A stretch of 64,000 bases of DNA from Fischerella sp. PCC 9605. Its GTDB lineage: Bacteria; Cyanobacteriota; Cyanobacteriia; Cyanobacteriales; Nostocaceae. Numbering within the stretch: the stretch's first letter is position 1; the number at the start of each line of letters is the position of its first letter. The position numbers were made by a program, and so were the translations under genes. Positions 1-64,000 of this stretch are shown here, piece by piece. The notes beneath the pieces were generated by a model. The model worked only from the letters and a program-made list of their open reading frames with translations, was not told where the DNA came from and ran no database searches. The stretch is from positions 387,484-451,483 of the forward strand of contig NZ_KI912152.1 of NCBI RefSeq assembly GCF_000517105.1. Direction: 5' to 3'.

Positions 1-3000
1 AAGTATCCCCAAAACCTCTAGCGGTAAAATTCGCCGTCGTGCTTGTCGCGCTGGTTTTATAGCTGGAGATTTAAATATTGTCTGGGATTGGAGTAAGAAT
101 CCTGAAAATAAATCAGAGTTCCGTAATTTGCTGGCAGAGGTAGATGCTTTAAAGCAGCAAATAAAAGGTCAAAAACAGGAGAATGAAGTAGTAAAAGTAT
201 CTCCAGAATTAGAGAATATCCGCGTCAAATTACGCAATATTGTAGCTAATTTATTACAAGTAGACTTTGCCACAGTTGATATTCATCAACCTTTGATGGC
301 AATGGGTGCAGATTCTCTGGTAATGGTTGAAGCTGCTGAAGCTATAGAAAATTTGTTTGGGATTAATATTGAACTACGCCAATTGTTTGAAGAGTTAACA
401 ACTCTTGATGCTTTGGCTAATTACATCAGTCAAAATCAATCTTCATCAGCTAATTTAACAGCTTCAACACCAGTTAATCTTACACAAAAAACATCAGAGG
501 AAGAAACTATAGTTCCTCTTTCCGAAGCTCAAAAACAACTTTGGGTTTTGGCACAAATGGAAGATAATGGTTCGCTGGCTTATAACGTTTCTGCTACAGC
601 AGAATTAAAGGGTAATTTTCAGTTAGAAGCAATGCGTCAAGCAATGCAAAAACTAGTGAATCGTCATGAGGCTTTACGGACAAGCATCAGCAGTGAAGGC
701 AATTTTCAAAATATCTTGCCTGACTTAGAAGTTGAAATTCCTGTAATCAATTTCTCCTGCTTCAATCAAGAACAACGTCAGTCTCAAGTAGATAGGTGGT
801 TGAAGAAAGAAAGCTGCGACGTTTTTGATTTAAGCAAAGCTCCTTTATTCCGTTTTAATATCCTCAAACTAACGGAAAGACACCACTTACTTGTGTTCAC
901 GGCTCATCATATTATTGTTGATGGTTGGTCAATGGGAGTAATTCTGCAAGAATTAGCTGCTTTGTATTCAGCAGAATGTCAGAACTTTGACACCAGACTC
1001 AAGCCACCTATGCAATTAAGAGAATACATTGAGTGGCAAGAGCAGCAAAGTAACACACCAGAAATGAAACTGCATGAATCCTATTGGTTAGAACAATTTT
1101 CAGCTACAATTCCTATTTTAGACTTACCTACAGACCGTCCTCATCCACCCATAAAGACTTATAAAGGTAGCAGAACAACTATTCAGCTTGATGCTAATTT
1201 ATTCCGTCAAGTCAAGAAATTTAGTCAAGAAAATAGTTGTACTTTGTTGATGACTCTTTTATCTGTGTACACTACTTTACTGCACAGATTAACAGGTCAA
1301 GAAGATATTGTAGTTGGCGTTCCGGCCTCTGGAAGATTTAAAGGTAGTGAAGGACTTGTAGGTTATTGTTCTCACTTATTACCAATTAGAAGTTACATTG
1401 ATGGAAATGTGACATTTTTACAGCATTTGCAAATTACTAAAACTGAATTGTTAAATGCTTACGAACATCAAGATTATCCTTTTGCTAGGTTAATTGAAAC
1501 ACTGAAAACAACCAAAAATAAAAATTTATCGCCTCTAGTCACAGCAGTATTCAACTTAAACCGACCTTTAGCTGTGCCGCAGATGTTTGGAGTTGAGACA
1601 AGTTTATTATCTCAACCTGTTAGTTTTTTGGATCATGATATTTGTCTTAATGTCAGTGAGATAGACGGTGAATTGATTTTAGATTGTGATTACAATACTG
1701 ACTTATTTGATGCCAGCACTATTAATGGCATACTAGAAATTTTACAAACATTTTTGGAAAAAACTGTAACTAATCCTGAGCAGTTGCTAGCTACTATCCC
1801 CCTATTAAACGAATCTCAACGCCATCAATTATTGGTAGAATTTAACAAAACTAACAAAGAATATCCTCAAAATAAGTGCATTCATGAATTATTTGCGGAG
1901 CAAGTAGAAAAAACACCGGATGCGGTTGCTGTTGTATCTGGAGAGCAAAAACTTACTTACCGAGAATTAAATCACCGTGCTAACCAACTAGCGAATTATC
2001 TGCAAACACTGGGAGTGAAACCAGAAGTATTAGTAGGAATTTGCATTGAATCTTCTTGGGAAATGATGGTGGGAATGTTGGGTATTCTCAAAGCTGGTGG
2101 TGCTTATGTACCGCTTGATCCTAGTTATCCCCAAGAACGCTTGGATTATATTTTGTCTGATTCTCGTGTGTCAGTTTTGTTAACAACTGAGAATTTGCTG
2201 GCACAATTGCCTACGTATGGAGCCAAAGTTATCTGTTTAGATACACAATGGGAAGCAATTTCTAGTTATAGTCAAGCAAATCTTCAGTCTGATGTGCAGC
2301 CCAGCAACCTTGGTTATGTAATTTACACTTCTGGTTCTACAGGCAAGCCCAAAGGAGTGTTAGTTACACATCAGAATTTAGTAAATCATAGTAGCGCGAT
2401 CGCTCGCAAATTTCACCTCACATCTCAAGATAATGTCCTACAATTTGCAGCTTTGAGTTTTGATGTGGCCATAGAAGAAATCTTTCCTTCTTGGTTAAGC
2501 GGTGCAACGGTAGTGTTACGTCCCAATGAGATGTTTGCTTCTTTCGCAGACTTCGTTGAATTTATCAATAAACAAAATTTGACAGTTTTAAATTTACCGG
2601 CTGCATTCTGGCATGAATGGGTTTTAGATTTATCTCAATCCCAAGAATATTTACCAAAGTGTTTGCGGTTAGTGGTTGTGGGTAGCGAACAAGTCAGATG
2701 GGAACGAGTCGCTATGTGGCAAAAATACGTTGGTTGTCATATCAAACTACTCAATGCTTACGGCCCCACTGAAGCGACGATTACAGCCACAGTTTACGAA
2801 CCAGACTTGAGAAAGCTAAAAAATCAAACTGGTGGTGTACCTATCGGTCGTCCCATTGCCAATACCCAAGTTTATATTCTTGATAGAAATCTGCAACCAG
2901 TACCCATTGGTGTTGTGGGTGAACTTTACATTGGTGGTGCTGGTGTAGCTCGTGGATATCTCAACTGTTCCGAATTAACCTCAGAAAAGTTTGTTAACAA

Positions 3001-5065
3001 TCCTTTTGGTGATTCCAAATTGTATAAAACAGGCGATTTGGCGCGTTACTTAAAGGATAGCAATATTGAATTTATTGGGCGCATTGATAACCAAGTTAAA
3101 ATTCGCGGTTTCCGAATTGAACTAGGAGAAATTGAGTCTATTCTCAATACTTATCCCCAGGTAAAACAAGCAATAGTCATTGCCAGAGAAGATAATGCTG
3201 GTAACAAGCGATTAGTAGCTTATGTAGTTGCTAACACTGATACACTTGATACTCAGCAACTGCACTCTGAACTCAAACAGAAATTACCGAATTATATGGT
3301 TCCTAGTGCATTTGTAACCCTCGATGCACTACCCTTGACTCCTAACGGTAAAGTAGACCGGAAAGCATTACCAGCACCAGATAAAAATACAGCAATAGAT
3401 GTAGTTTCACCTACCACATCCACTCAAGAAATACTAGCCAAAATCTGGGCTGAGGTACTGGGTGTAGAACAAGTAAGTATTTACGATAACTTCTTTGAAT
3501 TAGGTGGAGATTCTATTCTCAGTATTCAGGTAGTAACTCGCGCAAATGCAGAGGGTTTGGTGCTGACTCCCAAACAGCTATTTCAACACCAAACTATTGC
3601 AGATTTATCTACTGTGGTGACGACAAACACCACTGTTACAGCCGAACAAGGTGTAGTCACAGGCACAGTACCCTTAACACCCATCCAGTATTGGTTTTTT
3701 GAGCAGAATTTACCGAATCCCTCTCACTATAACCAGTCTGTAATGTTGGAGGTATCACCAGACCTCAAGCCAGAGCTATTAGAACAAGCTTTACAGCAAC
3801 TACTGATACATCATGATGCTCTACGTCTACGCTTTACATTGTCTGCATCCAATGTAACTCAGTTTAACGCTGAATATGAAGAAACACAGGTTTTCTCTTG
3901 CATAGATTTATCAAAATTATCTCCAATAGAACAGCAATCAGCCCTAAAATCAACTGCTGATGAAATGCAAACTCAACTCAACCTATCACAAGGTTCTTTG
4001 ATGCGAGCTATACTGTTCCGTCTAGGCAATAACCAACCAGGACGTTTGTTGCTCATCGTACATCATTTAGCAGTCGATGGTGTTTCTTGGCGGATTTTAC
4101 TAGCAGATTTGTTTACAGCTTATCAGCAACTTAGTCATGGTTTAGCAATTCAATTACCAGCAAAAACAACTTCTTTCAAAGATTGGGCAAACCGACTGAG
4201 CGAATATGCTTCAAGTCCAGCATTAGCTACAGAGTTGAATTACTGGTTAACTCAATCTGCTTGTAATGTCCCGCCTTTACCAGTGGACTATATTGCTGGG
4301 AAAGAGAAAAATACAATAGCCTCAGCAGAACAAGTATCAGTTTCTTTGAGTGTGGAACAAACCCAAGCACTACTGCAAGATGTACCTTCTACCTACAACA
4401 CCCAAATTAATGATGTCTTGCTGACTGCTTTGATGCAAACTTTTGCTGATTGGACTGGCGAGAATACTTTATTAGTTGACTTGGAAGGCCACGGACGAGA
4501 AGAATTATTTGAGGATGTGGACTTATCCCGTACCGTTGGCTGGTTTACTTCTGTCTTTCCTGTGAAGTTAGAACTTAATCATCATCTTCAGGGGGAAGCA
4601 CTCAAATCAATTAAAGAACAATTACGGCAAATTCCCAATCGTGGTATTGGTTATGGTGTGTTGCGATATTTGAGTCAGGATAAGCAATTACAATCTCTAC
4701 CCCAACCACAAATCAGTTTTAACTACTTGGGACAATTGGATGGAGTTCGTTCTTCTTCAATGCTTTTAGGATTCGCTAAGGAGTCAACTGGACTCACCCA
4801 TTGTCCTCAAGGATACCGTAGTCATCTACTAGAAGTAGATGGTTTTGTGGTTGATGGCAAATTGCAACTGAATTGGACTTATAGCAGTAGTTTTCATCAC
4901 AGACATACTATTGAGTTTTTGGCTGGGATGTTCATCAAAATATTGGAATCTTTGATTTATCACTGTGTTGATGTGGAAGTTGGTAGTTATACACCTTCGG
5001 ACTTTCCGGAAGCTGGGTTAAATCAATATGAACTGGAATTATTACTCGGCAAACTGTCTGTGTGA
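1..5065 (+). CDS. NRPS, FAAL(partial)-ACP-C-A-PCP-E, 5' end outside window
   Basis: The reading frame is open from base 2, so the gene starts upstream. The first codons give IPKTSSGKIRRR, the C-terminal signature of fatty-acyl-AMP ligases. An acyl carrier domain follows (GADSL near 305), then a condensation domain with HHIIVDGWS near 905. The adenylation domain has YTSGSTGKPKG near 2325, and the carrier has LGGDS near 3500. An epimerisation domain ends the protein (HHLAVDGVSW near 4060, then VGWFTSVFP and a NYLGQLDG-type motif). Such a protein activates a fatty acid, loads it on the ACP, couples it to one amino acid and epimerises that residue. The binding-pocket code read by eye is D-V-E-N-V-V-A-I-T-K, which I cannot assign. 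It is the first gene of a three-gene operon. Confidence 0.93.
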   Translation, partial: SIPKTSSGKIRRRACRAGFIAGDLNIVWDWSKNPENKSEFRNLLAEVDALKQQIKGQKQENEVVKVSPELENIRVKLRNIVANLLQVDFATVDIHQPLMAMGADSLVMVEAAEAIENLFGINIELRQLFEELTTLDALANYISQNQSSSANLTASTPVNLTQKTSEEETIVPLSEAQKQLWVLAQMEDNGSLAYNVSATAELKGNFQLEAMRQAMQKLVNRHEALRTSISSEGNFQNILPDLEVEIPVINFSCFNQEQRQSQVDRWLKKESCDVFDLSKAPLFRFNILKLTERHHLLVFTAHHIIVDGWSMGVILQELAALYSAECQNFDTRLKPPMQLREYIEWQEQQSNTPEMKLHESYWLEQFSATIPILDLPTDRPHPPIKTYKGSRTTIQLDANLFRQVKKFSQENSCTLLMTLLSVYTTLLHRLTGQEDIVVGVPASGRFKGSEGLVGYCSHLLPIRSYIDGNVTFLQHLQITKTELLNAYEHQDYPFARLIETLKTTKNKNLSPLVTAVFNLNRPLAVPQMFGVETSLLSQPVSFLDHDICLNVSEIDGELILDCDYNTDLFDASTINGILEILQTFLEKTVTNPEQLLATIPLLNESQRHQLLVEFNKTNKEYPQNKCIHELFAEQVEKTPDAVAVVSGEQKLTYRELNHRANQLANYLQTLGVKPEVLVGICIESSWEMMVGMLGILKAGGAYVPLDPSYPQERLDYILSDSRVSVLLTTENLLAQLPTYGAKVICLDTQWEAISSYSQANLQSDVQPSNLGYVIYTSGSTGKPKGVLVTHQNLVNHSSAIARKFHLTSQDNVLQFAALSFDVAIEEIFPSWLSGATVVLRPNEMFASFADFVEFINKQNLTVLNLPAAFWHEWVLDLSQSQEYLPKCLRLVVVGSEQVRWERVAMWQKYVGCHIKLLNAYGPTEATITATVYEPDLRKLKNQTGGVPIGRPIANTQVYILDRNLQPVPIGVVGELYIGGAGVARGYLNCSELTSEKFVNNPFGDSKLYKTGDLARYLKDSNIEFIGRIDNQVKIRGFRIELGEIESILNTYPQVKQAIVIAREDNAGNKRLVAYVVANTDTLDTQQLHSELKQKLPNYMVPSAFVTLDALPLTPNGKVDRKALPAPDKNTAIDVVSPTTSTQEILAKIWAEVLGVEQVSIYDNFFELGGDSILSIQVVTRANAEGLVLTPKQLFQHQTIADLSTVVTTNTTVTAEQGVVTGTVPLTPIQYWFFEQNLPNPSHYNQSVMLEVSPDLKPELLEQALQQLLIHHDALRLRFTLSASNVTQFNAEYEETQVFSCIDLSKLSPIEQQSALKSTADEMQTQLNLSQGSLMRAILFRLGNNQPGRLLLIVHHLAVDGVSWRILLADLFTAYQQLSHGLAIQLPAKTTSFKDWANRLSEYASSPALATELNYWLTQSACNVPPLPVDYIAGKEKNTIASAEQVSVSLSVEQTQALLQDVPSTYNTQINDVLLTALMQTFADWTGENTLLVDLEGHGREELFEDVDLSRTVGWFTSVFPVKLELNHHLQGEALKSIKEQLRQIPNRGIGYGVLRYLSQDKQLQSLPQPQISFNYLGQLDGVRSSSMLLGFAKESTGLTHCPQGYRSHLLEVDGFVVDGKLQLNWTYSSSFHHRHTIEFLAGMFIKILESLIYHCVDVEVGSYTPSDFPEAGLNQYELELLLGKLSV

Positions 5066-5165
5066 GGAGAATTTAACAGGTTTTTAACGCCAAGTATTGT
5101 GTTTTAGACGCTTTGGCTTTCCGCAGGGTGTTAAACGCGAAATTTTAATGACAAAGGAGAGAATT

Positions 5166-8100
5166 ATGAACAAGCAAAATAAAAATATCGAGTCGATTTA
5201 TCCTCTTTCTCCGATGCAGCAGGGTATGTTATTTCACACTCTTTATGCACCCGAATCAGGGGTTTATGTTGAGCAGTTAAGCTGTACTTTGAAAGGAAAC
5301 TTACAGATTACAGCGTTTGAGCGTGCTTGGCAACAAGTAGTAGATAGACATTCTATTTTACGTACTCTTTTTGTTTGGGAACATGGAAAACAACCTCTGC
5401 AAGTTGTGTGTAAGTCGGTTAACTTGCCTTGGATAATTCATGATTGGCAGAAGTTATCTGCTATTGAACAGCAGGAAGGTTTGCAGGCTTTGTTGGAGAG
5501 AGAACGTAAGACTGGTTTTGCATTAGATAAAGCACCGTTAATGCGTTGTACTCTGATTAAATTGCAGGAAGATACTTATGAATTTATTTGGAGTCATCAT
5601 CATTTATTAATGGATGGTTGGTGTTTATCTATCATCCTCAAAGAAGTTTTCGCTTTTTACGAAGCTGGAATTCAAGGAAAAAATTTACACTTATCTCTAC
5701 CACGTCCTTACAAAGACTACATCCTCTGGCAACAGCAGCAAGATTATTCTCAAGCAGAGATGTTCTGGCGGCAAAGACTCAAAGGTTTTCATGCTCCTAC
5801 ACCTTTACTAGGAGATAAAAACACCCATCCTCAACACATTCAAAATCATCAACATCTGCAATTATCTCCTTCCCTGACTGCCAGCCTTAAATCTTTGGCG
5901 GTGACAAATCATCTGACAATGAACACTATCTTACAAGGTGCTTGGGGGTTAATCTTAAGTCGTTACAGTGGGGAACAAGATGTAGTTTTTGGCACTACTG
6001 TTTCCGGTCGTCCCACTGCTTTATCGGGAGTAGAATCAATGGTGGGGCTGTTTATTAATACATTGCCAGTACGAGTCAAAATATCAGAGGAAATAGAGTT
6101 ATTACTGTGGCTAAAAGGGCTACAACTGCAACAAGTAGAACAAGAGGAATATTCATATACTCCACTGGTTGATATTCAGGGATGGAGTGAAGTACCTCGT
6201 GAAATGCCCTTGTTTGAAAGTTTAGTTGTTTTTGAGAATTATCCATTAGATGCTTCGTTAAAAGCACAAAATAGCAGCATTCAAGTTAGCAATGTTCGTA
6301 ACTTTGAGCAAACTAATTATCCTCTCATACTTATAGCTGAACCTGGAGAACAATTGTCTATACGGATTAGCTATGATACTAGCCAATTTGCAGATGATAG
6401 CATTAAACGAATGTTAGGACATCTGCAAGTTTTGCTGGAAAGCATTGCCGAAAATCCTCACCAAAAATTAGAGAACCTGCCATTACTCACACCAGCAGAA
6501 CGGCATCAACTATTAGTAGAATGGAACAATACTCAAACTGAATATCCGCAAGAAAAATGTCTTCATGAATTGTTTGAGGCACAAGTAGAAAAAATGCCGG
6601 ATGCAGTAGCTGTTGTATTTAGAGACCAACAGATAACTTACCGAGAATTAAACAATCGTGCCAACCAACTAGCACATCATTTACAAACATTAGGAGTTGC
6701 ACCAGAAGTATTGGTAGGTATCTGTGTCAATCGTTCTCTGGAAATGATGGTAGGACTGTTAGGAATTCTCAAAGCTGGTGGTGCTTATATACCCTTAGAT
6801 CCCACATATCCCCCAGAACGTTTGGCTTATATGTTGGCAGATTCACAATTACCAATACTGTTGACTCAAAAGCAACTATTAGACAAACTTCCACAACATC
6901 AAGCACAAACAATTTGTCTAGATGAAAATGAGGAAAATTTTGTTAATTACCCTCAAGATAATCCTAACAGCGCAGTCAAACCTGACAATTTAGCTTACAT
7001 AATTTATACCTCTGGATCTACAGGCAAACCCAAAGGAACAATGATTGTCCATCGTGGCATAGTGAACTATTTAAGCTGGTGTATAAAAGCCTATAATGTT
7101 GCTGTAGGAGAAGGTTCTACTGTCAATTCTTCTATTGGTTTTGATGCCACTATTACCAGTTTATTTTCTCCTTTAATAGTGGGGGGTAAAGTGGTGCTTT
7201 TGCCAGAAGAAAATGAAATTGAAGAACTCAAAAAATCTTTGTGTTCTGGGACTAGATTCAGCCTAGTAAAAATTACTCCTGCTCATTTAGACATCCTCAG
7301 TCATTTATTAGCTAATGAACAAGTAAACATTCAAGTACAAGCATTTATTATTGGTGGTGAAGCCTTATCAGAAAAAGTAGCTTCTTTTTGGCTGCAAAAA
7401 GCACCGTCAACTAAATTAATTAACGAATACGGCCCCACAGAAACAGTAGTAGGATGCTGTATTTACGAAGTTGAAAAACAAAGCTTTCCAGGAGGAAATA
7501 TCCCTATCGGTCGTCCCATTGCCAATACCGAGCTATATATTTTGGATAACCATTTACAACCAGTTCCGATTGGAGTTATGGGTGAGTTGTATATCGGTGG
7601 TGCTGGTGTCGCTAGAGGTTATCTCAATCGTCCCGAATTAACTTCAGAAAGATTTATTAACAGTCCATTTAATAAATCAAGATTATATAAAACAGGAGAT
7701 TTAGCTCGTTACCTTCCGGATGGAAATATTGAATATCTTGGACGTATCGACCATCAGGTAAAAATTCGCGGATTTCGGGTCGAACTTGGAGAGATAGAAT
7801 CCTTAATTGCTCAATATCCAAATGTTGTTTCTACAACAGTTATTGCTCGTGAAGATAAGCCGGGCCATAAAAAGTTAGTTGCCTATATTGTTCCTGAAAA
7901 ATTACAAAATTTTTCTGATAAGAAATTATATCAATTTTTGCAAGAAAAATTACCGCATTACATGGTTCCATCTGCTTTTGTGCAGCTAGATATTCTACCT
8001 CTAACTCCTAATGGTAAAGTAGACCGTAAAGCATTATCCGCACCTAATAGTTCCGAGATTTATGTTTCTCATGATTTTGTTGCTCCGAGAAATAACATAG

Positions 8101-9152
8101 AGTTACAACTAGCACAAATTTGGGAAGATATTTTAAATATTCGACCTATCGGTATTAAAGATAACTTCTTTAATCTTGGTGGACATTCACTGTTAATAGT
8201 GCGGCTGATGGCTCAGATTCAGCAGCATTTTGGCATCAATTTACCTTTAGCAACAATTCTCCAAAATCCTACGGTTGCTCAAATAGCAAATACTCTTAGT
8301 CAACATACAAATTCTTTAGCAAATTCCGCATTAGCTGCTATTAACAGAAATGGCTCTAATATCCCTTTATTCTGTGTACCTGGAGTTGGTGGCAATGGTT
8401 TGTATTTCTACAATTTGGCACATCATTTAGGTGCAGAACAGCCTTTTTACACTTTCCAAGCACAAGGATTGGATGGTAAATCAAAACCTCACACCAGTAT
8501 TGAAGATATAGCAGCCCAATATGTTCAAACAATGCAAACTGTACAACCTCAAGGACCTTATATTTTGGGAGGTTATTCGTTTGGCAGCAACATAGCTTTT
8601 GAAATGACTCAACAATTGAAAAAACAAGGTCATGAAGTTGCTTTACTTGCTGTTCTGGATAATTTTGCGCCAATTAATAGTAACAAACCCAAAGATTTTC
8701 ATTTGGATGAAGCAACTAGACTCAAACATATAGTTCGTGTTGTGGAACGCCTATCTGGGAAAAAGTTAGAAGTTGATTATGAGGTTTGGCAAAAACTCAA
8801 TTTGGAGGGACAATTAAATTACCTTCAGGAACAATTTAGCGAAATTACAACTGATCAACTTCGTGGTTTAATCCAAGTTTTCGATGCCAATGTCCAAGCT
8901 GGAATTAATTATCTCCCACAAGCGATTTATCCAATTCCGATTGTTTTGTTTCAAGCAAGTGAGGATGATGCTGAAGATACTTTTATTCCAGCAGATGCAG
9001 CCTGGGGTTGGAACAAACTTTCTTCTACACGGGTAGAAATTCAAACAGTTCCAGGAAATCATCACAGTATGCTCAGTAAACCTCACGTTCAAGTATTGGC
9101 TCAGAAGCTCAAAGCTTGCATCAATCAAGTTCAAACTGTGGGAGTAGCATAA
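5166..9152 (+). CDS. NRPS, C-A-PCP-TE termination module
   Basis: The protein has about 1328 residues. The condensation domain comes first, with HHHLLMDGW in the region 10-440; as it follows an E domain it should be of the DCL type. The adenylation domain spans roughly 460-990 (YTSGSTGKPKG). The carrier (LGGHS) is near 1030, and the C-terminal thioesterase has GYSFG. The pocket code read by eye is D-A-T-K-I-G-E-V-G-K, close to published Asn-type codes, so Asn is a tentative substrate. The start at 5166 is preceded by AAAGGAGAG; upstream in-frame starts at 5097 and 5148 have no such site. The gene adds a second residue and releases the acyl dipeptide. Confidence 0.94.
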   Translation: MNKQNKNIESIYPLSPMQQGMLFHTLYAPESGVYVEQLSCTLKGNLQITAFERAWQQVVDRHSILRTLFVWEHGKQPLQVVCKSVNLPWIIHDWQKLSAIEQQEGLQALLERERKTGFALDKAPLMRCTLIKLQEDTYEFIWSHHHLLMDGWCLSIILKEVFAFYEAGIQGKNLHLSLPRPYKDYILWQQQQDYSQAEMFWRQRLKGFHAPTPLLGDKNTHPQHIQNHQHLQLSPSLTASLKSLAVTNHLTMNTILQGAWGLILSRYSGEQDVVFGTTVSGRPTALSGVESMVGLFINTLPVRVKISEEIELLLWLKGLQLQQVEQEEYSYTPLVDIQGWSEVPREMPLFESLVVFENYPLDASLKAQNSSIQVSNVRNFEQTNYPLILIAEPGEQLSIRISYDTSQFADDSIKRMLGHLQVLLESIAENPHQKLENLPLLTPAERHQLLVEWNNTQTEYPQEKCLHELFEAQVEKMPDAVAVVFRDQQITYRELNNRANQLAHHLQTLGVAPEVLVGICVNRSLEMMVGLLGILKAGGAYIPLDPTYPPERLAYMLADSQLPILLTQKQLLDKLPQHQAQTICLDENEENFVNYPQDNPNSAVKPDNLAYIIYTSGSTGKPKGTMIVHRGIVNYLSWCIKAYNVAVGEGSTVNSSIGFDATITSLFSPLIVGGKVVLLPEENEIEELKKSLCSGTRFSLVKITPAHLDILSHLLANEQVNIQVQAFIIGGEALSEKVASFWLQKAPSTKLINEYGPTETVVGCCIYEVEKQSFPGGNIPIGRPIANTELYILDNHLQPVPIGVMGELYIGGAGVARGYLNRPELTSERFINSPFNKSRLYKTGDLARYLPDGNIEYLGRIDHQVKIRGFRVELGEIESLIAQYPNVVSTTVIAREDKPGHKKLVAYIVPEKLQNFSDKKLYQFLQEKLPHYMVPSAFVQLDILPLTPNGKVDRKALSAPNSSEIYVSHDFVAPRNNIELQLAQIWEDILNIRPIGIKDNFFNLGGHSLLIVRLMAQIQQHFGINLPLATILQNPTVAQIANTLSQHTNSLANSALAAINRNGSNIPLFCVPGVGGNGLYFYNLAHHLGAEQPFYTFQAQGLDGKSKPHTSIEDIAAQYVQTMQTVQPQGPYILGGYSFGSNIAFEMTQQLKKQGHEVALLAVLDNFAPINSNKPKDFHLDEATRLKHIVRVVERLSGKKLEVDYEVWQKLNLEGQLNYLQEQFSEITTDQLRGLIQVFDANVQAGINYLPQAIYPIPIVLFQASEDDAEDTFIPADAAWGWNKLSSTRVEIQTVPGNHHSMLSKPHVQVLAQKLKACINQVQTVGVA

Positions 9153-9153
9153 G

Positions 9154-10467
9154 ATGATTCAACCCCTAGTTGTTAAAGGAATGCAAGTCTTTATACTTAT
9201 ATGGCTGGGACAAATAGCTTCTTTGACTGGTTCTGGACTTACTAATTTTGCTTTGGGTGTTTGGGTATATCAGCATACTGGTTCAGTGACTCAATTTGCT
9301 TTAATTTCTTTATTTGCAACCATCCCACGAGTGATTATTTCTCCTCTGGCTGGTGCTTTGGTAGACCGTTGGCAGCGTCGTTGGGTAATGATAATTGCCG
9401 ATTCTGGTGCAGGAATAAGTACGCTCTTATTGTTTCTGTTGTTAGGTACTAATAATCTAGAAATTTGGCATATATATCTAATAACAATTGCTAGTGCTAG
9501 TTTTAGTGCTTTTCAATGGCCAGCTTACAATGCTGCTATAGCCTTAATAGTTCCCAAAGCACAGCTGATTCGTGCTAATGGGATGATGGAATTGGGAGAA
9601 GCTTTATCTCATCTAATTTCGCCTGTGCTAGCTGGCGTTTTGTTAGCTAAAATCCAGCTACAAGGAATTATTCTGATTGACTTTATCAGCTTTATTTTCT
9701 CTTTGTTTATCCTCATAAGCATTCAGTTCCCTAATGACAAAAATAATAGGACAAAGAAAATAGCTAAAAGTTCATTATTCAAGGAAATATTCTATGGTTT
9801 TCAATACATTTTTCAGAGGAAAGGATTATTAGGACTACTAATATTTTCTGCTATCACTGACTTAGGGTTGGGAGTAGTTCAAGTGTTAATCACACCCTTA
9901 GTATTGTCTTTTGCTTCACCAACTGCTTTAGGAAGCATTATGTCTATTGGTGGTGTTGGTATGTTAATTGGTAGTTTAGTTATAACTCTTTATAAAAGAG
10001 GGCAAAGTGCAATCAATAATGTATTTATGTTTCAGTTCTTAGGTGGGTTATCAATTTTATTTGCCGGTTTAAGAACTTCTGTGAAACTTTCCGCATTGGC
10101 GGCGTTTTTATTCTTTTTTGGCTGGCCGATAATTAACAGTTCTACTAGATTGATTTTTCAAAAGAAAGTCGCGCCTGATGTTCAAGGAAGAGTCTTTGCA
10201 TTCATTGGAGGAGTTACCGGAATATCTTTTCCCTTGGCTTATTTAGTGGCTGGGCCGCTTGCAGATGAAGTGTTTGAACCATTAATGTCTGTTAATGGTT
10301 TACTAGCCGGAAGTATTGGACAAATAATTGGTGTTGGAATAGGACGAGGGATTGCACTAATATTTGTGCTAACGGGAGTAATGACGATAGTAATCACCAT
10401 TGTTGGATATCATTATCCTCCTTTGAGAAGAGTTGAACAAGAATTACCTGATGTAATTGTCACTTAA
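9154..10467 (+). CDS. MFS exporter of the NRPS operon
   Basis: This 437-residue hydrophobic protein has about 12 predicted membrane segments. The motif DRWQRRWV sits between helices 2 and 3, as in the MFS_3 (enterobactin-exporter-like) group. The start codon lies one base after the stop of the NRPS gene, so translation is probably coupled. By position it most likely exports the lipopeptide and may protect the producer; the substrate is inferred from context only. Confidence 0.85.
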   Translation: MIQPLVVKGMQVFILIWLGQIASLTGSGLTNFALGVWVYQHTGSVTQFALISLFATIPRVIISPLAGALVDRWQRRWVMIIADSGAGISTLLLFLLLGTNNLEIWHIYLITIASASFSAFQWPAYNAAIALIVPKAQLIRANGMMELGEALSHLISPVLAGVLLAKIQLQGIILIDFISFIFSLFILISIQFPNDKNNRTKKIAKSSLFKEIFYGFQYIFQRKGLLGLLIFSAITDLGLGVVQVLITPLVLSFASPTALGSIMSIGGVGMLIGSLVITLYKRGQSAINNVFMFQFLGGLSILFAGLRTSVKLSALAAFLFFFGWPIINSSTRLIFQKKVAPDVQGRVFAFIGGVTGISFPLAYLVAGPLADEVFEPLMSVNGLLAGSIGQIIGVGIGRGIALIFVLTGVMTIVITIVGYHYPPLRRVEQELPDVIVT

Positions 10468-57406: not shown

Positions 57407-57461
57407 CCAAAACAATTCAAAATTCCACGCCCGCAAAATTCAAAAGAATATTGGGTTGGGT

Positions 57462-58273
57462 GGTAGTCAAGAATTGATTCACTATTTATTTATATAGGTA
57501 GTGGCTACCGCTACACATACTACGGGTGTAGCATAAACCGTAGTCACCACCTGCTGAGCGTCAACCCAAGCGTTGGGTGGTAGTCATGGATTGGTTATCT
57601 ATTTATTTATATAGATGGTGGCTACCGCTACATATACTACGGGCTCCGCACAAACCGTAGTCACCACCAGTCGTAGTCATACTGGGAATACAGTAGTCAT
57701 TGATTAGTTATCTATTTATTTATATAGGGGGTGGCTACCGCTACACATGCTACTGGTGTAGTATAAGCCGTAGCCACCATCTGCCGTATTCAATATTGGG
57801 TTGGGTGGTAGTCATTGATTGATTTATCTATTTATTTATTATGAGTGGTGGCTACCACTACATATACTACGGGCTCCGCACAAGCCGTAGTCACCAAAGC
57901 GTGGTAGTCGATATTGGGTTGGGGGGTAGTCATGGATTGATTAATCTATTTGTTTATATAGGTGGTGACTACACCCGACAGCTTAAAGCTGTTGTAAAGG
58001 ATTTGGAGCGCATCGATTGCGATCGCTGTTTGGTAGCCACCATCGATGGGGCGTCAATATTGGGGATATGGTAGTCATTGATTGATTATCTATTTATTTA
58101 TATAGGTGGTGACTACGGGGATATAAGTTGGTCGTATTGGTCGGGGATGAAGAAGAATGAGTCTCGGTGGACGCTCGACAGCCTCGGGTCGCCGCATGTA
58201 GCCACCATCGATGGTAGTCATATTGGGAAATTGGTAGTCATGAATTGATTAATCTATTTATATATAGGTGGTG
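57462..58273. repeat. seven long iterons, candidate replication origin
   Basis: Seven copies of an about 48-bp unit start at 57462, 57579, 57692, 57807, 57925, 58070 and 58233. Pattern: GGTAGTCA, GATTGATTATCTATTTATTT, ATATAGG, TGGCTACC. Each is flanked by inverted GGTAGTCA/TGRCTACC ends, with AT-rich centres. Spacers hold further palindromes such as CTACGGG..CCGTAG. The array begins 56 bases after the Rep stop. It suits Rep binding or partition. 58274-58460 has a palindromic GCTCTTTGCA element and no gene. Confidence 0.75.
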
Positions 58274-59244: not shown

Positions 59245-59620
59245 AACAATTCAAAATCTTATGGACAAAAGCCTTGAGTTGTTCAATATCTCTACCGGAT
59301 TGTCGGTTGCCTGTTGCGAGTTGATGATGCCTTCTGAGTCGTGGTACTGCTCGATCTTCTCGTGGTAGTTTGTGAGAAATTGTTGTGTAGCATTTCGATG
59401 AATGCCGAATTCACGCTCAAGCAGTCCTTTTGTAATTGCAAAGGTTTTGTCAGGATGCTTAGGTAACGGATGCTGTGTGGGTTGGAACTGTCCGAGCGAA
59501 ACAACCGAGCGCGTGTCGGCGTCCAGTCAAAATTTCAGGTTCACAGGAGCGAAGCAATTCTTGTACTTTTTGGGGATATACGTATACACGTATAGCTTGA
59601 AGGTAATGAAGCTTATCAGC
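59245..59620 (-). pseudogene. relic of a second telomere-resolvase gene
   Basis: From about 59610 the strand reads LQAIRVYTY, then ELL-like and CEPEILTGRRH-like codons in shifted frames, matching LQGIRVYEYLAKVQELLLSC to TGRRH of the gene at 60572. It then jumps to HPDKTFAITKGLLEREFGIH and QQFLTNYHEKIEQYHDSEGI, matching the C-terminal domain. An internal deletion and frameshifts have removed the catalytic core. 59083-59244 holds nothing else. Confidence 0.7.
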
Positions 59621-60354
59621 TAGAGTCTGTCGCGAATAAAAGCCTTAAGTTCGTGAAGATTTCTGCCTTTTTGACGGTTGTGAGTGTGGGAATTTACCAC
59701 ACCGATAGAGTCGTGATAATGGCAAATATCGTCTTGGTAGGCAGTAAAAAACTGCTTGACAGCGCCAGGGTGGATGCGCCATTCACGCTCTAGCAAGCGC
59801 TTAGTGAAAGCAAAGCTGCGATTGGGATACTGGTGGTTCCACTGTTTGAGTGCTAAGAAAATCCGCATCGCCCGTTGTTGTGCGCTACCAGCTGGGACAC
59901 TTTGAAGAGGCATGGGAGCTCTTAGCTCTGAGCAGGGGGAAGAAAGAACTTTCCCCTCTGCTAAGAGCGCCCTGCCCGAAACCTCTTCCTCCCCCTTGCA
60001 AAGAGCAAAGTGCCCCCTTGCCTCTTGTTGTTGAGTAGAGTAGTGATATTTGTTTTCTAACAATTGGTTATAAGCTTTTAACAATAATGCTTGAGATTGC
60101 TTTAATCGTGTATTCTCGGCTATAAGGTTTGTAATTTCAGTTTCCAGTTCGGCATCGGTTGTTGTGTGCTGTGCCTTCAACGTAGTAATTTGTTGGCGTA
60201 GGTTTAAAACTTCTTGTGTTAGTAATGCCAAAGTTTTGGACAACTCAACTAGGGTTAGAACATTTACCGCATTGTCCCCATTCTGGTACGTGTTAGACCC
60301 TGTTACCTCAACAGTTTGGCTTTGTCTTGAGCTAGGCATTGGCGATTTGGGCAT
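59620..60354 (-). CDS. stand-alone C-terminal domain relative of the telomere resolvase
   Basis: The 244-residue protein has a coiled coil (LSKTLALLTQEVLNLRQQIT, then LENKYHYSTQ) and a Gly/Ser/Pro linker derived from a palindromic repeat. A C-terminal domain follows (AMRIFLALKQWNHQYPNRSF; RIHPGAVKQFFTAYQDDI; NRQKGRNLHELKAFI) that closely parallels the last 220 residues of the resolvase at 60572. It lacks the catalytic domain. It may bind the same DNA sites and act as a regulator or end-binding protein, or be a by-product of gene decay. Confidence 0.6.
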   Translation of the reverse strand: MPKSPMPSSRQSQTVEVTGSNTYQNGDNAVNVLTLVELSKTLALLTQEVLNLRQQITTLKAQHTTTDAELETEITNLIAENTRLKQSQALLLKAYNQLLENKYHYSTQQQEARGHFALCKGEEEVSGRALLAEGKVLSSPCSELRAPMPLQSVPAGSAQQRAMRIFLALKQWNHQYPNRSFAFTKRLLEREWRIHPGAVKQFFTAYQDDICHYHDSIGVVNSHTHNRQKGRNLHELKAFIRDRL

Positions 60355-60571: not shown

Positions 60572-62755
60572 CTACTTACCAATGGCGTGATTAACAAAGT
60601 TCTTGAGTAGTTGGAGATTGCGGCCAGGTTTGCGGTTGTGCCCACGTTCGTTTTTGACGCCAATAGAGTTGTGGTGTTGCTGGATTTGTTGATGGTAAGC
60701 AGTTAAAAACTGCTGTACAGCATTGCGGTAAATGTGGAAATCGCGTTCAAGCAAGCATTGGGTGATGGCGAAAGTGCTTTCTGGATGCTGGTGGTTCCAT
60801 TGTTTGATGGCTTGGAAGACTTGGATGGCTCGGTGTAGAGCGCTACCGGGTTTGGTCGGGGTGGGGAGTGTGGGGAGTGTGGGAGGTACCTCTGGTGTGG
60901 GAAGTTCCTCACACTTGTGTTCTTCCCACACTTGTGTTCTCCCCTCTCTCCCCCCTCTCCCCACACTCCCGATTCCTCCCTTGCTTAGGTGGGATGGGGT
61001 GTGATTGTTTTGTAATAATTCGTTGTAAGCCGCTAGGAGAGAGGATTGGGCTTGCTTGAGGTGTAAATTTTCAGCTATTAGGTGTTCAAGTTCAGATTTG
61101 CTGGCATCAATATCTTGTAGGCGAGCCTTGGCACTATCTCGCTCGATGGTAAGTTCAGTGACTTGTTGGCTGAGGGTAATGACTTGCTGTGTAAGCAATG
61201 CCAGAGTTTGAGAAAGGTCAATGATTGGCTGAGGTGTTTGTTTTGGGATTTCGCTATATTCGCGATGCGGCTGTTGCTGTTGTGTTGGTTCTAGATGATT
61301 GGGGTTGCCAGCCGCTTCTACAACTGGTGTATTGTCGGAGGGTGGGATAAGTTTCACCATCCAATCATCGTTATTAAGCGACTGTAAGCGTGATTCAAGA
61401 GCGTTGAGTAGTTCAGACATTTGCTGCTCTTGTGGCTGGTTTGGGTAGATTGCGTCGAGTACAGCACAAAGGCGCTGCAATTGACTGCTGTCAAATGGTA
61501 GTTGTTGCGTGGATGGCGAGACTGCTTCTTTCTCAATAATACTGCCACCTGAAGAGGCTCTTTGCAGGGTGCTCTTTGCAGGGGGAGGAATTTCTCCCGA
61601 GCTTTGCGCTCCCTGCTCAAGAGCCTCTTGTTGGGGGTGATCTGGTAGTGTGGTATCGGCTTTGAGTTTAACTCCCCGCCTCGTAATAGGTGTGCCATTG
61701 TCATCAACCAAATAGTAATGAAAATAGTGGTCAGTGGCTCTGGAATTGGCAGCGGTAATCTCAGAGTCGAGGACGTGTCCTAAGTAATTTTGAAGGAAGC
61801 GATGTATATGTTGGTTGTCCCGGCAGAAAAAGTGAATGGCGATCGCTCCATACAAAGCTCTCAACCGATGAATTGAAACAGTCTTAAAACCTTCGAGAAC
61901 AGGTACTAGTCCTGTATCTCCAAAAATTGTTTGCACTCGTCGATTCACACGGGAGTTGAAAGCTTCCACTTGTGGGTGAGTGTCATCAAGTCCTGCTAGT
62001 GCTTGCATTGTGGGCATAGTCCGATAGCGTTCAATGACTGGTAGTAATTCACTAGCAGCAATTAAGCTAAGAATGTTATAGCCTACCGCGTCAGCTTTTT
62101 TCTGTTGTCCTTGAAAGTGAATCAAGTAAGGATGTTGAGTTGGTAGAAATTGCCCGACGCTAACTACTTCAGTGTGTCGGCGTCCAGTCAGCGCTGCGAT
62201 CGCGATCGTTAAAATTTCAGGTTCACAGGAGAGCAGCAATTCTTGGACTTTGGCAAGATATTCGTATACACGTATGCCCTGTAGGTTGTCTTGTCGCTGG
62301 TTGTTATTGGCAGTGGTAAGCGATCGTAGTTGGTTTTGAGTCGCAGTATCATAGGTTAGAAACTCAAGAGCGTAGTGTGTTTGAGTTGTACCAGAATCAC
62401 TGCCGTCACGTTTTGTCCATTTTTTCGGGTAGCTGTTTTGGTCGTTAAGGTGCAAGCGACCGTTGGCGATCGCTTCTTTGATAACTCGCGTGTAATTTGG
62501 CAAATATACACTGTTGATAGAGCTTTGGGGAAAACCTTCTTCTAGCAAAGCTTTCTCAGAGTCACAAAGTTCTCGAATCCGCTCAAGGCTGTCTTGTCCA
62601 TTTTGGTTGAGGGATATCAATCGATCTAGGAGAATCAACGTTAAAGTTTCTCGCTCACAGCGAGTTAAACGGGTGCGCTCCCCAGCTTGAATTCTTTTGC
62701 GGTAGTTTTCTACAATGGATGAGCGAGTAAGGTCAAATTGTGTTGCGAGGCTCAT
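60572..62755 (-). CDS. telomere resolvase (protelomerase) family protein
   Basis: This 727-residue protein has a helical N-terminal part (1-160) and a tyrosine-recombinase-like core. Its likely active-site residues are R192/R193 (ALTGRRHTEV), K219 or K220 (HFQGQQKK), H296/R299 (VSIHRLRALYG), H327 (YLGH) and Y347/Y348 (DHYFHYYLV). This spacing matches the ResT/TelA/TelK catalytic domain. These enzymes cut palindromic target sites and seal each side into hairpin telomeres. A coiled coil (510-590), variable linker and C-terminal DNA-binding-type domain follow. A 68-bp palindrome lies 1.2 kb upstream of the gene. Confidence 0.8.
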   Translation of the reverse strand: MSLATQFDLTRSSIVENYRKRIQAGERTRLTRCERETLTLILLDRLISLNQNGQDSLERIRELCDSEKALLEEGFPQSSINSVYLPNYTRVIKEAIANGRLHLNDQNSYPKKWTKRDGSDSGTTQTHYALEFLTYDTATQNQLRSLTTANNNQRQDNLQGIRVYEYLAKVQELLLSCEPEILTIAIAALTGRRHTEVVSVGQFLPTQHPYLIHFQGQQKKADAVGYNILSLIAASELLPVIERYRTMPTMQALAGLDDTHPQVEAFNSRVNRRVQTIFGDTGLVPVLEGFKTVSIHRLRALYGAIAIHFFCRDNQHIHRFLQNYLGHVLDSEITAANSRATDHYFHYYLVDDNGTPITRRGVKLKADTTLPDHPQQEALEQGAQSSGEIPPPAKSTLQRASSGGSIIEKEAVSPSTQQLPFDSSQLQRLCAVLDAIYPNQPQEQQMSELLNALESRLQSLNNDDWMVKLIPPSDNTPVVEAAGNPNHLEPTQQQQPHREYSEIPKQTPQPIIDLSQTLALLTQQVITLSQQVTELTIERDSAKARLQDIDASKSELEHLIAENLHLKQAQSSLLAAYNELLQNNHTPSHLSKGGIGSVGRGGREGRTQVWEEHKCEELPTPEVPPTLPTLPTPTKPGSALHRAIQVFQAIKQWNHQHPESTFAITQCLLERDFHIYRNAVQQFLTAYHQQIQQHHNSIGVKNERGHNRKPGRNLQLLKNFVNHAIGK

Positions 62756-63932
62756 TGTACCACAATTGTATTATCAAGGTTACAAATGGTCGGTAAAGCT
62801 CGATTTCTATACAGATATACTAACACGCATACAGATGTCTCGCCAGCGTTAGATCAAAATATGTGTAGATATGTGTAGTGAAAAGTTGCGATTGTTCTGG
62901 ATTTTTCAGGCCTTGGGAATATCTAAGTAAATCTGGGCAACCTTCCCCACGAGTAAACGCGAGTGCGCCGTATAGATATCGTGGAGAGGGTATGCGTAGG
63001 CAGGTTCTTCTCAGTTAATCATGATTATTGACAAATAACCCTGCCGTGACACTTGCCAAGGTTGCCCAGATAACCTGCGAAAAAATGAAACCGATCGCTG
63101 CGGTAATTCTTGTCTGTTTTGGTAGAGATATATTTGTATATAGGTAGATCTGCGAGATTGTTTTGGTGTTTTGATTATGAAATAATAGAAAAGAGAATGT
63201 GCTACGAGGTGATTGATGGAGAGTTAAGGGAATAATTTCATAGAAAGATTTAATGAAGTCGAATGGCGGCTGTGGCGGCTGTAGCTAAAGGGAGCAAATA
63301 GGGCGGCGATGGCGCAGAGCGCCCGCCGTAGGCGAACGCTTTTGCGAATTGATTGTGTGTTTCGGGTTTCGGGAATTTTTAGTATACTAGAAAACTAAGT
63401 ATACAGTGAAATCGGTTAGTATACATATAAGCTGTCAGCATAAAAAAGAAGAGTAAGCCATAAAGGGAGCAACGCGATTTTCGTACACAAGTAAAATGGT
63501 TGATATAGAGTAGAGAAATGGTCGATAGGCTGTATAGGCTGTAAAAGGCTGTTTTTGAGGGGTTTGAGTCGAATGGCACCTTCGCATGCGATCGCCAATC
63601 GCAAAGCATCAAAATCAAAGGGGATTTTTATGATAAAAACGGCTTATGAAACTACTTCAATCACCGCAAATGCATACAAATATTTTCTTGTTTAATACAT
63701 TTTTTTGCAGCAGACTTATGCTTTTATGGAATTCCTTACCAAGCCGGAAATTGTTTATGGAGTCACGCTCTTTGACGCAAATATGTGTAACCCTTGTGCA
63801 GCAAAGCTTTTGCATGTATGCAATGCAAGTCTGCAATGCTAAGTATAAATTAATACAACAATGCAAGCATAAGCTAATTAACGCAGATATGAATAAAAAT
63901 ATAAGCAATTTAAATACATAAGTAAATCTAAT
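62756..63932. other. gene-poor stretch between resolvase and terminal palindrome
   Basis: It holds a 13-bp inverted pair TCTGGGCAACCTT (62932-62944) and its complement (63058-63070), and three AGTATAC motifs at 63370-63411. AT-rich DNA with repeated ATGCA/TGCAT words follows from 63660 on. Open frames here overlap on both strands and look random. The AGTATAC motifs may be protein-binding sites. Confidence 0.5.
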
Positions 63933-64000
63933 CAATAAGCCGGGTGGGACATCGCGTTTTTTGGAATTCCAAAAAACGCGATGTCCCACCCGGCTTATTG
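63933..64000. other. 68-bp perfect spacerless palindrome, candidate telomere (rTel) site
   Basis: Both halves are exact complements over 34 bp, centred between 63966 and 63967 on GGAATTCC, with no loop. From the centre outward come a run of six T/A pairs, CGCGATGTCC and CACCCGGCTTATTG. It reaches the last base of the window and may be longer. Spacerless perfect symmetry is what telomere resolvases act on; a terminator would normally have a loop. The link to the resolvase gene is inferred from proximity. Confidence 0.6.

Follow-up and report, generated by a model that had tools for sequence, protein, structure and literature searches.

Is the right-hand end of a large contig of Fischerella sp. 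PCC 9605 the telomere of a linear replicon, and is the enzyme that would form such a telomere encoded next to it? The question is raised by the last few kilobases of a stretch of 64,000 nucleotides (the window; contig NZ_KI912152.1, G000:C10:387484-451483), which ends exactly where the 451,483-bp contig C10 ends. A first-pass annotation had pointed to a 727-residue protein with the full active-site set of ResT/TelA/TelK telomere resolvases and to a 68-bp palindrome without spacer about 1.2 kb away. Both are present: an open reading frame (ORF) on the minus strand (60572-62755) carries all the listed motifs, and a perfect, spacer-free palindrome occupies positions 63933-64000; its dyad (63966/63967) and the gene are separated by 1,212 bp. 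The contig end folds back around the sequence TTGGAATTCCAA, and we consider it very probable that the ResT/TelA/TelK-family protein encoded 1.2 kb inside cuts replicated sites and re-seals them, so that a linear replicon receives covalently closed hairpin tips.

From base composition, palindromes of this kind are expected 4.6e-16 times per 64 kb and 6e-14 times per whole genome. The second-longest perfect palindromes of the 451-kb contig have 13-bp arms, the 68-bp palindrome is single-copy in the 8.08-Mb assembly, and the remaining two copies of TTGGAATTCCAA in this genome have arms of 6 bp. The last 1,245 bp of C10 gave only short matches elsewhere in the genome, and no second full copy. Because the palindrome sits at the contig terminus, it is a terminal fold-back without another flank, and its length of 68 bp is fixed by the point at which the contig stops. 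The first-pass picture of a resolvase beside a symmetric site has to be modified accordingly. The end sequence folds back on itself and is not a free-standing internal site, while the association of enzyme and site is upheld by the protein family, the predicted fold, the site itself and the presence of the core at contig ends of relatives. No terminal fold-back was found at 21 other ends of the window assembly (C2, which is masked, was left out), or at 15 left ends of contigs that lack a match to this resolvase in genomes G067, G118 and G357. A rule equating palindrome length with the assembler k-mer minus one was also considered; it fits a length of 126 bp (k=127) and was rejected because it is broken by the ends of a related contig, G523:C7 (36 and 44 bp).

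The protein matches PF16684 (ResT-TelK catalytic domain) over the entire profile (1-181 of 181), with 167.1 bits against a cut-off of 27. Its motifs are T190-G-R-R-H194, G216-QQKK220, H296-R-L-R299, L325-G-H327 and the tyrosines Y344/Y347/Y348. R193, K219, H296, R299, H327 and Y344 are invariant in 46 of 46 sequences, which fits the R-K-(Y/K/H)-R-H-Y set of topoisomerase IB/tyrosine recombinases; the catalytic set of TelA is named in excerpts of PMC3558466. Judged by invariance and position rather than by residue-level superposition, Y344 is the putative counterpart of TelA Y405. Structure prediction, the check that the first-pass annotation had proposed, gave a TelA-like N-terminal plus catalytic fold. 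The C-terminal domain, modelled alone, reached a predicted local distance difference test score (pLDDT) of 91.1; its model had no PDB match at E<=0.001 (best 1.4), and we do not claim a new fold. Three extra PF16684 genes are present in the window genome (G000:C5:24963-25565, C3:799-1305 and C1:21835-22419), with no fold-back at their contig termini. In IMG/VR, we found no relative of the window resolvase and no match to the GTTNNN form of the core described below. By tblastn, 2 of 50,697 phage records, both from Vibrio phages, contain a relative at E<=0.001.

The 12-bp core recurs in other genomes. In a sample of 388 genomes from the order, 24 have a resolvase match at 1e-20, among them 8 (window included) with at least 50% identity. 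TTGGAATTCCAA was sought in 15 of the other 23 genomes and was found in 9, at 18 places. Ten of these places have arms of 6-7 bp, which is what chance predicts, and eight have arms of 14 to 2,739 bp. Among the eight, the core is contig-terminal in G067 (twice), G102 (twice), G119 and G357, and lies at the centre of perfect inverted repeats in G134 (1,738-bp arms) and G174 (2,739-bp arms). G067 and G102 are counted once, because their plasmid ends are the same, without a difference over 2,900 bp or more. For a class-wide sample of 388 genomes, 37 of them with a resolvase match, we inspected 20 contigs from 20 genomes. In this sample, G523:C7 carries the core at its two ends and G552:C432 at its end, and in G632 it forms the middle of a 272-bp palindrome. 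With the window included, the core is thus present in 10 genomes from 8 genera. In G659 (46% identical resolvase), an intact half-site (...TTTTTTGGAA) lies 26 bp from the contig end and is followed by other sequence.

Two patterns were searched for in the same samples, each with a reversed control. The GTTNNN form, GTTNNNTTGGAATTCCAANNNAAC, is found in 6 of 388 order genomes, all among the 8 with a close resolvase (reversed control 0); as the pattern was written from the telomeres of these same six genomes, the search was not blind and shows only that other genomes lack it. A hypergeometric value for these hits (6e-12) was discarded, since the pattern is derived from the hits and the genomes are related. 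The GTTNN form with the spacing of the window, GTTNNTTGGAATTCCAANNAAC, is found in 1 of 388 order genomes, the window's own (reversed control 1/388), and in 3 of 388 genomes of the class-wide sample, namely the window's genome, G523 and G552, each of which belongs to the 37 that match the resolvase (reversed control 1/388). This search was not blind either, as only G552 and the left end of G523 were new matches, the right end of G523 being already known. The matches lie at contig ends and read GTTTTTTGGAATTCCAAAAAAC in all three genomes. Neither pattern hits a genome without resolvase. Palindromic site and enzyme are matched in that the core lies at contig ends and the extended core is confined to genomes with the resolvase; binding of the site by the enzyme is a prediction.

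The G523 contig (172,842 bp) allows the two ends of one contig to be compared. Both carry the core in perfect palindromes, with 18-bp arms on the left and 22-bp arms on the right, and positions 17 and 19 distinguish the two inner arms. On the left, the outer arm has 0 mismatches to its own inner arm and 1 to that of the right end, and the right outer arm has 0 to its own and 2 to that of the left end. By these three base comparisons, a narrow basis on which the argument rests, each end pairs with itself, which fits hairpins or replicated head-to-head junctions, whereas one left-right joint of a circle would pair both arms. The arm of the window agrees with the right end of G523 at 51 of 98 positions (at most 36 in 195 shifted registers) and with the left end at 43 of 98 (at most 40 in 195 shifted registers). 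Two boxes, TTGCTTATA (+58) and TTATGC (+94), are common to the window and G523 arms. For the eight remaining telomeres compared with the window arm, identities stay within the shifted-register maxima.

Among known systems, TelA of Agrobacterium, with its linear chromid and hairpin telomeres, shares the catalytic residues and the N-terminal and catalytic fold with the window protein; it acts on a palindrome at replicon ends (PMC3558466, in excerpt). However, the two proteins are only about 20% identical, a histidine replaces the tyrosine of TelA position 363, the target core differs, and the window protein has 370 further residues with a long helix and a C-terminal domain. Unlike TelK/TelN of phages phiKO2/N15 and ResT of Borrelia, the window enzyme is encoded on a large contig where genes resembling those of non-ribosomal peptide synthetases also occur. 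The closest plasmid relative is pGLO7428.02 of Gloeocapsa PCC 7428 (NC_020051). Its record was deposited as a linear molecule, and each end carries a perfect palindrome of 36 bp around the core TTGGAATTCCAA. Its resolvase is 39% identical to that of the window over the whole length and, in the comparison with G102, 53% identical over residues 1-378. The plasmid differs in the distance of the resolvase gene from the end (13.3 kb versus 1.2 kb) and in a terminal inverted repeat of 1,340 bp, within which the palindrome lies.

Hairpin-ended plasmids have also been described in Nostoc sp. N6. The linear plasmids pNPM8-10 are likewise cyanobacterial, with terminal inverted repeats and with hairpin ends inferred from palindromic reads (PMC5987646, in excerpt). 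Unlike the window core TTCCAAAAAAC, they end in AAATTAACRGAC according to the same excerpts, and the pNPM10 protein, named 'protelomerase family protein' in RefSeq, falls in a distant branch. As a correction to the first-pass annotation, this kind of replicon is already known, although the words 'resolvase', 'protelomerase' and 'telomere' give no match in the main text of PMC5987646. Excerpts of PMC3558466 list cyanobacteria among the bacteria with hairpin-ended linear chromosomes, and those of PMC8987985 and PMC4379921 contain nothing on cyanobacterial resolvases. Searches of open-licence papers, covered for the most part as listings and without bioRxiv preprints and most subscription papers, turned up no named cyanobacterial enzyme-telomere pair. 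The linear chromosome of Crocosphaera/Cyanothece ATCC 51142 is reported as 429.7 kb (PMC5987646, in excerpt). A 429,701-bp contig encodes a protein named for Crocosphaera subtropica ATCC 51142, which shares 46% identity with the window protein over 49% of the latter and is sister to the G357 resolvase (support 0.998); the G357 contig that carries this resolvase ends in the core. In the underlying tree, the ORF filter removed 1 of 36 rows (G000:C1) and several deep nodes have support below 0.7, so that only this grouping and the one of the C5 protein with the pNPM10 enzyme (1.000) are used here.

Replication of the window replicon would start inside the molecule, possibly at the CyRepA1-like Rep gene and its repeats, and run round each hairpin, which would produce an inverted-dimer junction with TTGGAATTCCAA in its middle. 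The two half-sites would then be occupied by a resolvase dimer that cuts both strands around the dyad, with the cuts 6 bp apart if the analogy to TelA holds, i.e. within GAATTC, and the overhangs would be folded back and ligated to give two hairpins. This reading is supported by the contig-end fold-back, the protein family, the fold prediction, the core recurring with the resolvase across genera, and the two different self-folded ends on one G523 contig. From these observations we infer covalent closure, cleavage of the core by the window protein and linearity of the window replicon. The locus likely represents a hairpin telomere and its likely resolvase, a kind of system that is already known, with a newly defined site.

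Several points weigh against this interpretation, including the derivation of the two search patterns and the three base comparisons in G523 mentioned above. The left telomere of the window replicon was not found: the left end of C10, a repeat break, has no palindrome and matches repeats, and a complete linear-replicon system as envisaged in the first-pass annotation goes beyond what is shown, whereas two telomeres on one molecule are seen in the relatives G067, G102 and G523. C10 is a scaffold with two 100-N gaps. G017 (51% identical resolvase) has no palindromic core, and G558, G644, G414, G654, G685, G636 and G626 (47-52%) have no core in the stretches inspected and no GTTNN pattern genome-wide. 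G695, close to this core-less group, has TTGGATATCCAA at a contig end in place of the core, and in G497 a palindrome whose arms reach 9.5 kb or more is centred on TATAGAATTCTATA, which indicates that the core drifts. In G119 and G552, telomere and resolvase gene are on separate contigs.

The replicon could instead be a circle or an unresolved precursor with one intact palindromic site, at which the assembly broke, and with a resolvase that is idle or rarely active. As further points on this side, the Gloeocapsopsis dulcis plasmid (G134) was deposited as a circle in which two different flanks enclose an intact core, and the core of G174 is internal to a 673-kb contig. However, the terminal inverted repeats of 1.3-2.7 kb found in relatives could lead an assembler to close a hairpin-ended molecule falsely, and the PCC 7428 record, with the palindrome at both ends, is deposited as linear. 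An assembler break at the palindrome is possible for circle and hairpin alike, but a circle predicts a second contig starting with the same palindrome, unless this contig is missing, and the palindrome is single-copy in the window genome. The G523 ends, which fold on their own, slightly different arms, are not expected from one left-right joint either, and we regard a circle or precursor as improbable.

As palindrome and contig end at the same base, an artefact of sequencing or assembly might also be suspected, such as an amplification chimera or a long-read fold-back; artefacts of the inverted-chimera type are known from contig ends. With assemblies from 8 genera folding at the same 12-bp core, and terminal fold-backs at 0 of 36 control ends, this explanation is extremely improbable. 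Finally, the hairpin might be made by another resolvase of the same cell, as the three extra proteins on C3, C5 and C1 match PF16684 with 101.4, 98.3 and 62.7 bits, respectively. The core co-occurs with relatives of the window protein, however, while the C5 protein clusters in the tree with the enzyme of Nostoc pNPM10, a plasmid with AAATTAAC at its end, the C3 protein is far off in this tree and the C1 protein is absent from it. We consider this very improbable, and continue to favor a hairpin telomere formed by the window protein.

Table 1. Features of the window close to the contig end (positions are those of the window)
Feature	Position	Strand	Remarks
Terminal palindrome, predicted hairpin telomere of the replicon end	63933..64000		Perfect over 68 bp; chance expectation 4.6e-16 per window
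Conserved 12-bp telomere core TTGGAATTCCAA	63961..63972		Dyad 63966/63967 is the predicted tip of the molecule; same core in nine other genomes, at contig ends or inverted-repeat centres
22-bp extended core GTTTTTTGGAATTCCAAAAAAC	63956..63977		Identical in G523 and G552 (same class, different order)
Box TTGCTTATA, candidate accessory site	63900..63908	-	58 nt inside the dyad; register shared with both G523:C7 telomeres
Box TTATGC	63867..63872	-	Register shared with the two ends of G523; 94 nt inside the dyad
Telomere resolvase, ResT/TelA/TelK type, 727 aa	60572..62755	-	Residues 1-359, helical N-terminal part and catalytic domain; ~509-583, long helix or coiled coil (predicted); helical domain of 95 aa at the C-terminus
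244-aa paralogue of the C-terminal half of the resolvase only, without catalytic domain	59620..60354	-	43-46% identity to residues 511-722
Decayed second resolvase copy	59320..59602	-	tblastn: fragments of residues 158-209 and 656-702
117-bp tandem repeats, possible iterons/origin	57447..57972		4.5 copies, 75% matches; adjoin Rep
CyRepA1-like plasmid replication protein (Rep), 1281 aa	53561..57406	+	NCBIfam NF042913 E=2e-56, 192.1 bits (below cut-off 200); Pfam PF02399 1e-9

The Rep gene and the 117-bp repeats lie 6-10 kb inside the contig end, with the 244-aa paralogue and the decayed copy between the repeats and the resolvase (Table 1). The half-length paralogue and the remains of a second resolvase suggest turnover of resolvase genes at this end, and the free-standing C-terminal domain may compete for the telomere or assist binding. 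The GC skew along C10 shows no clear origin, only a rise over the last 10-20 kb, and PLSDB contains no near-identical plasmid. At the other end of the window (128-10467, plus strand), two large ORFs resemble non-ribosomal peptide synthetases and are followed by a transporter-like ORF, as judged by inspection of the translations rather than by family search. The large window ORFs inspected look non-phage; no scan aimed at phage structural genes was made.

More distant resolvases accompany other fold-backs, in G118 (CTGTATACA-centred, at both ends) and in G477 (ATGTTAATTAACAT). At both ends of G118:C23 (locus L146, 18,976 bp), 58-bp arms surround a single central base, one base in from the contig ends, with a CTGTATACA-type core. 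The G118 resolvase is 32% identical to that of the window, and its fold-backs would represent another telomere class with an odd centre. Long inverted repeats with two inverted resolvase copies each are found in G497:C1 (L231, dyad 916522, arms of at least 9.5 kb) and G477:C54 (L232, dyad 8741, 8.7 kb), and G647:C72 (L230) has 4,116-bp inverted copies across an N gap, also with two inverted copies of the resolvase gene. These repeats in G497, G477 and G647 are likely due to hairpin read-through that inflates the assemblies. The G. dulcis plasmid (NZ_CP119970.1, L042), deposited as circular, contains a perfect 3,476-bp palindrome on the core (dyad 211061) and is possibly linear, having been closed by the assembler. 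In the linear Gloeothece PCC 7822 record NC_014534.1 (L039), a resolvase gene starts at 5.2 kb, and positions 1-60 contain a cluster of restriction sites (GATATC, GAGCTC, GCCGGC, GGGCCC), so that the left end of this record looks like a cloning linker and not like a telomere.

Linear replicons in cyanobacteria have reportedly been known since Cyanothece ATCC 51142. The recurring core and the matching resolvase now provide a concrete substrate/enzyme pair, together with a sequence rule for spotting telomeres in existing assemblies, which suggests that some plasmids deposited as circular are linear. On balance, we lean toward the view that a class of hairpin telomeres is widespread among cyanobacteria but has gone unrecognised, with GAATTC at the centre of its 12-bp core and with a resolvase group of its own, characterized by a long helix and an extra C-terminal domain, that this class also caps the linear chromosome of ATCC 51142, and that 'circular' plasmids such as that of G. 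dulcis are really linear. If this wider class is real, the tips of the ATCC 51142 linear chromosome are predicted to be TTCCAAGGAAAC- or TTCCAA-like. With a defined site and enzyme to cap it, a plasmid could serve as a linear vector system for cyanobacteria.

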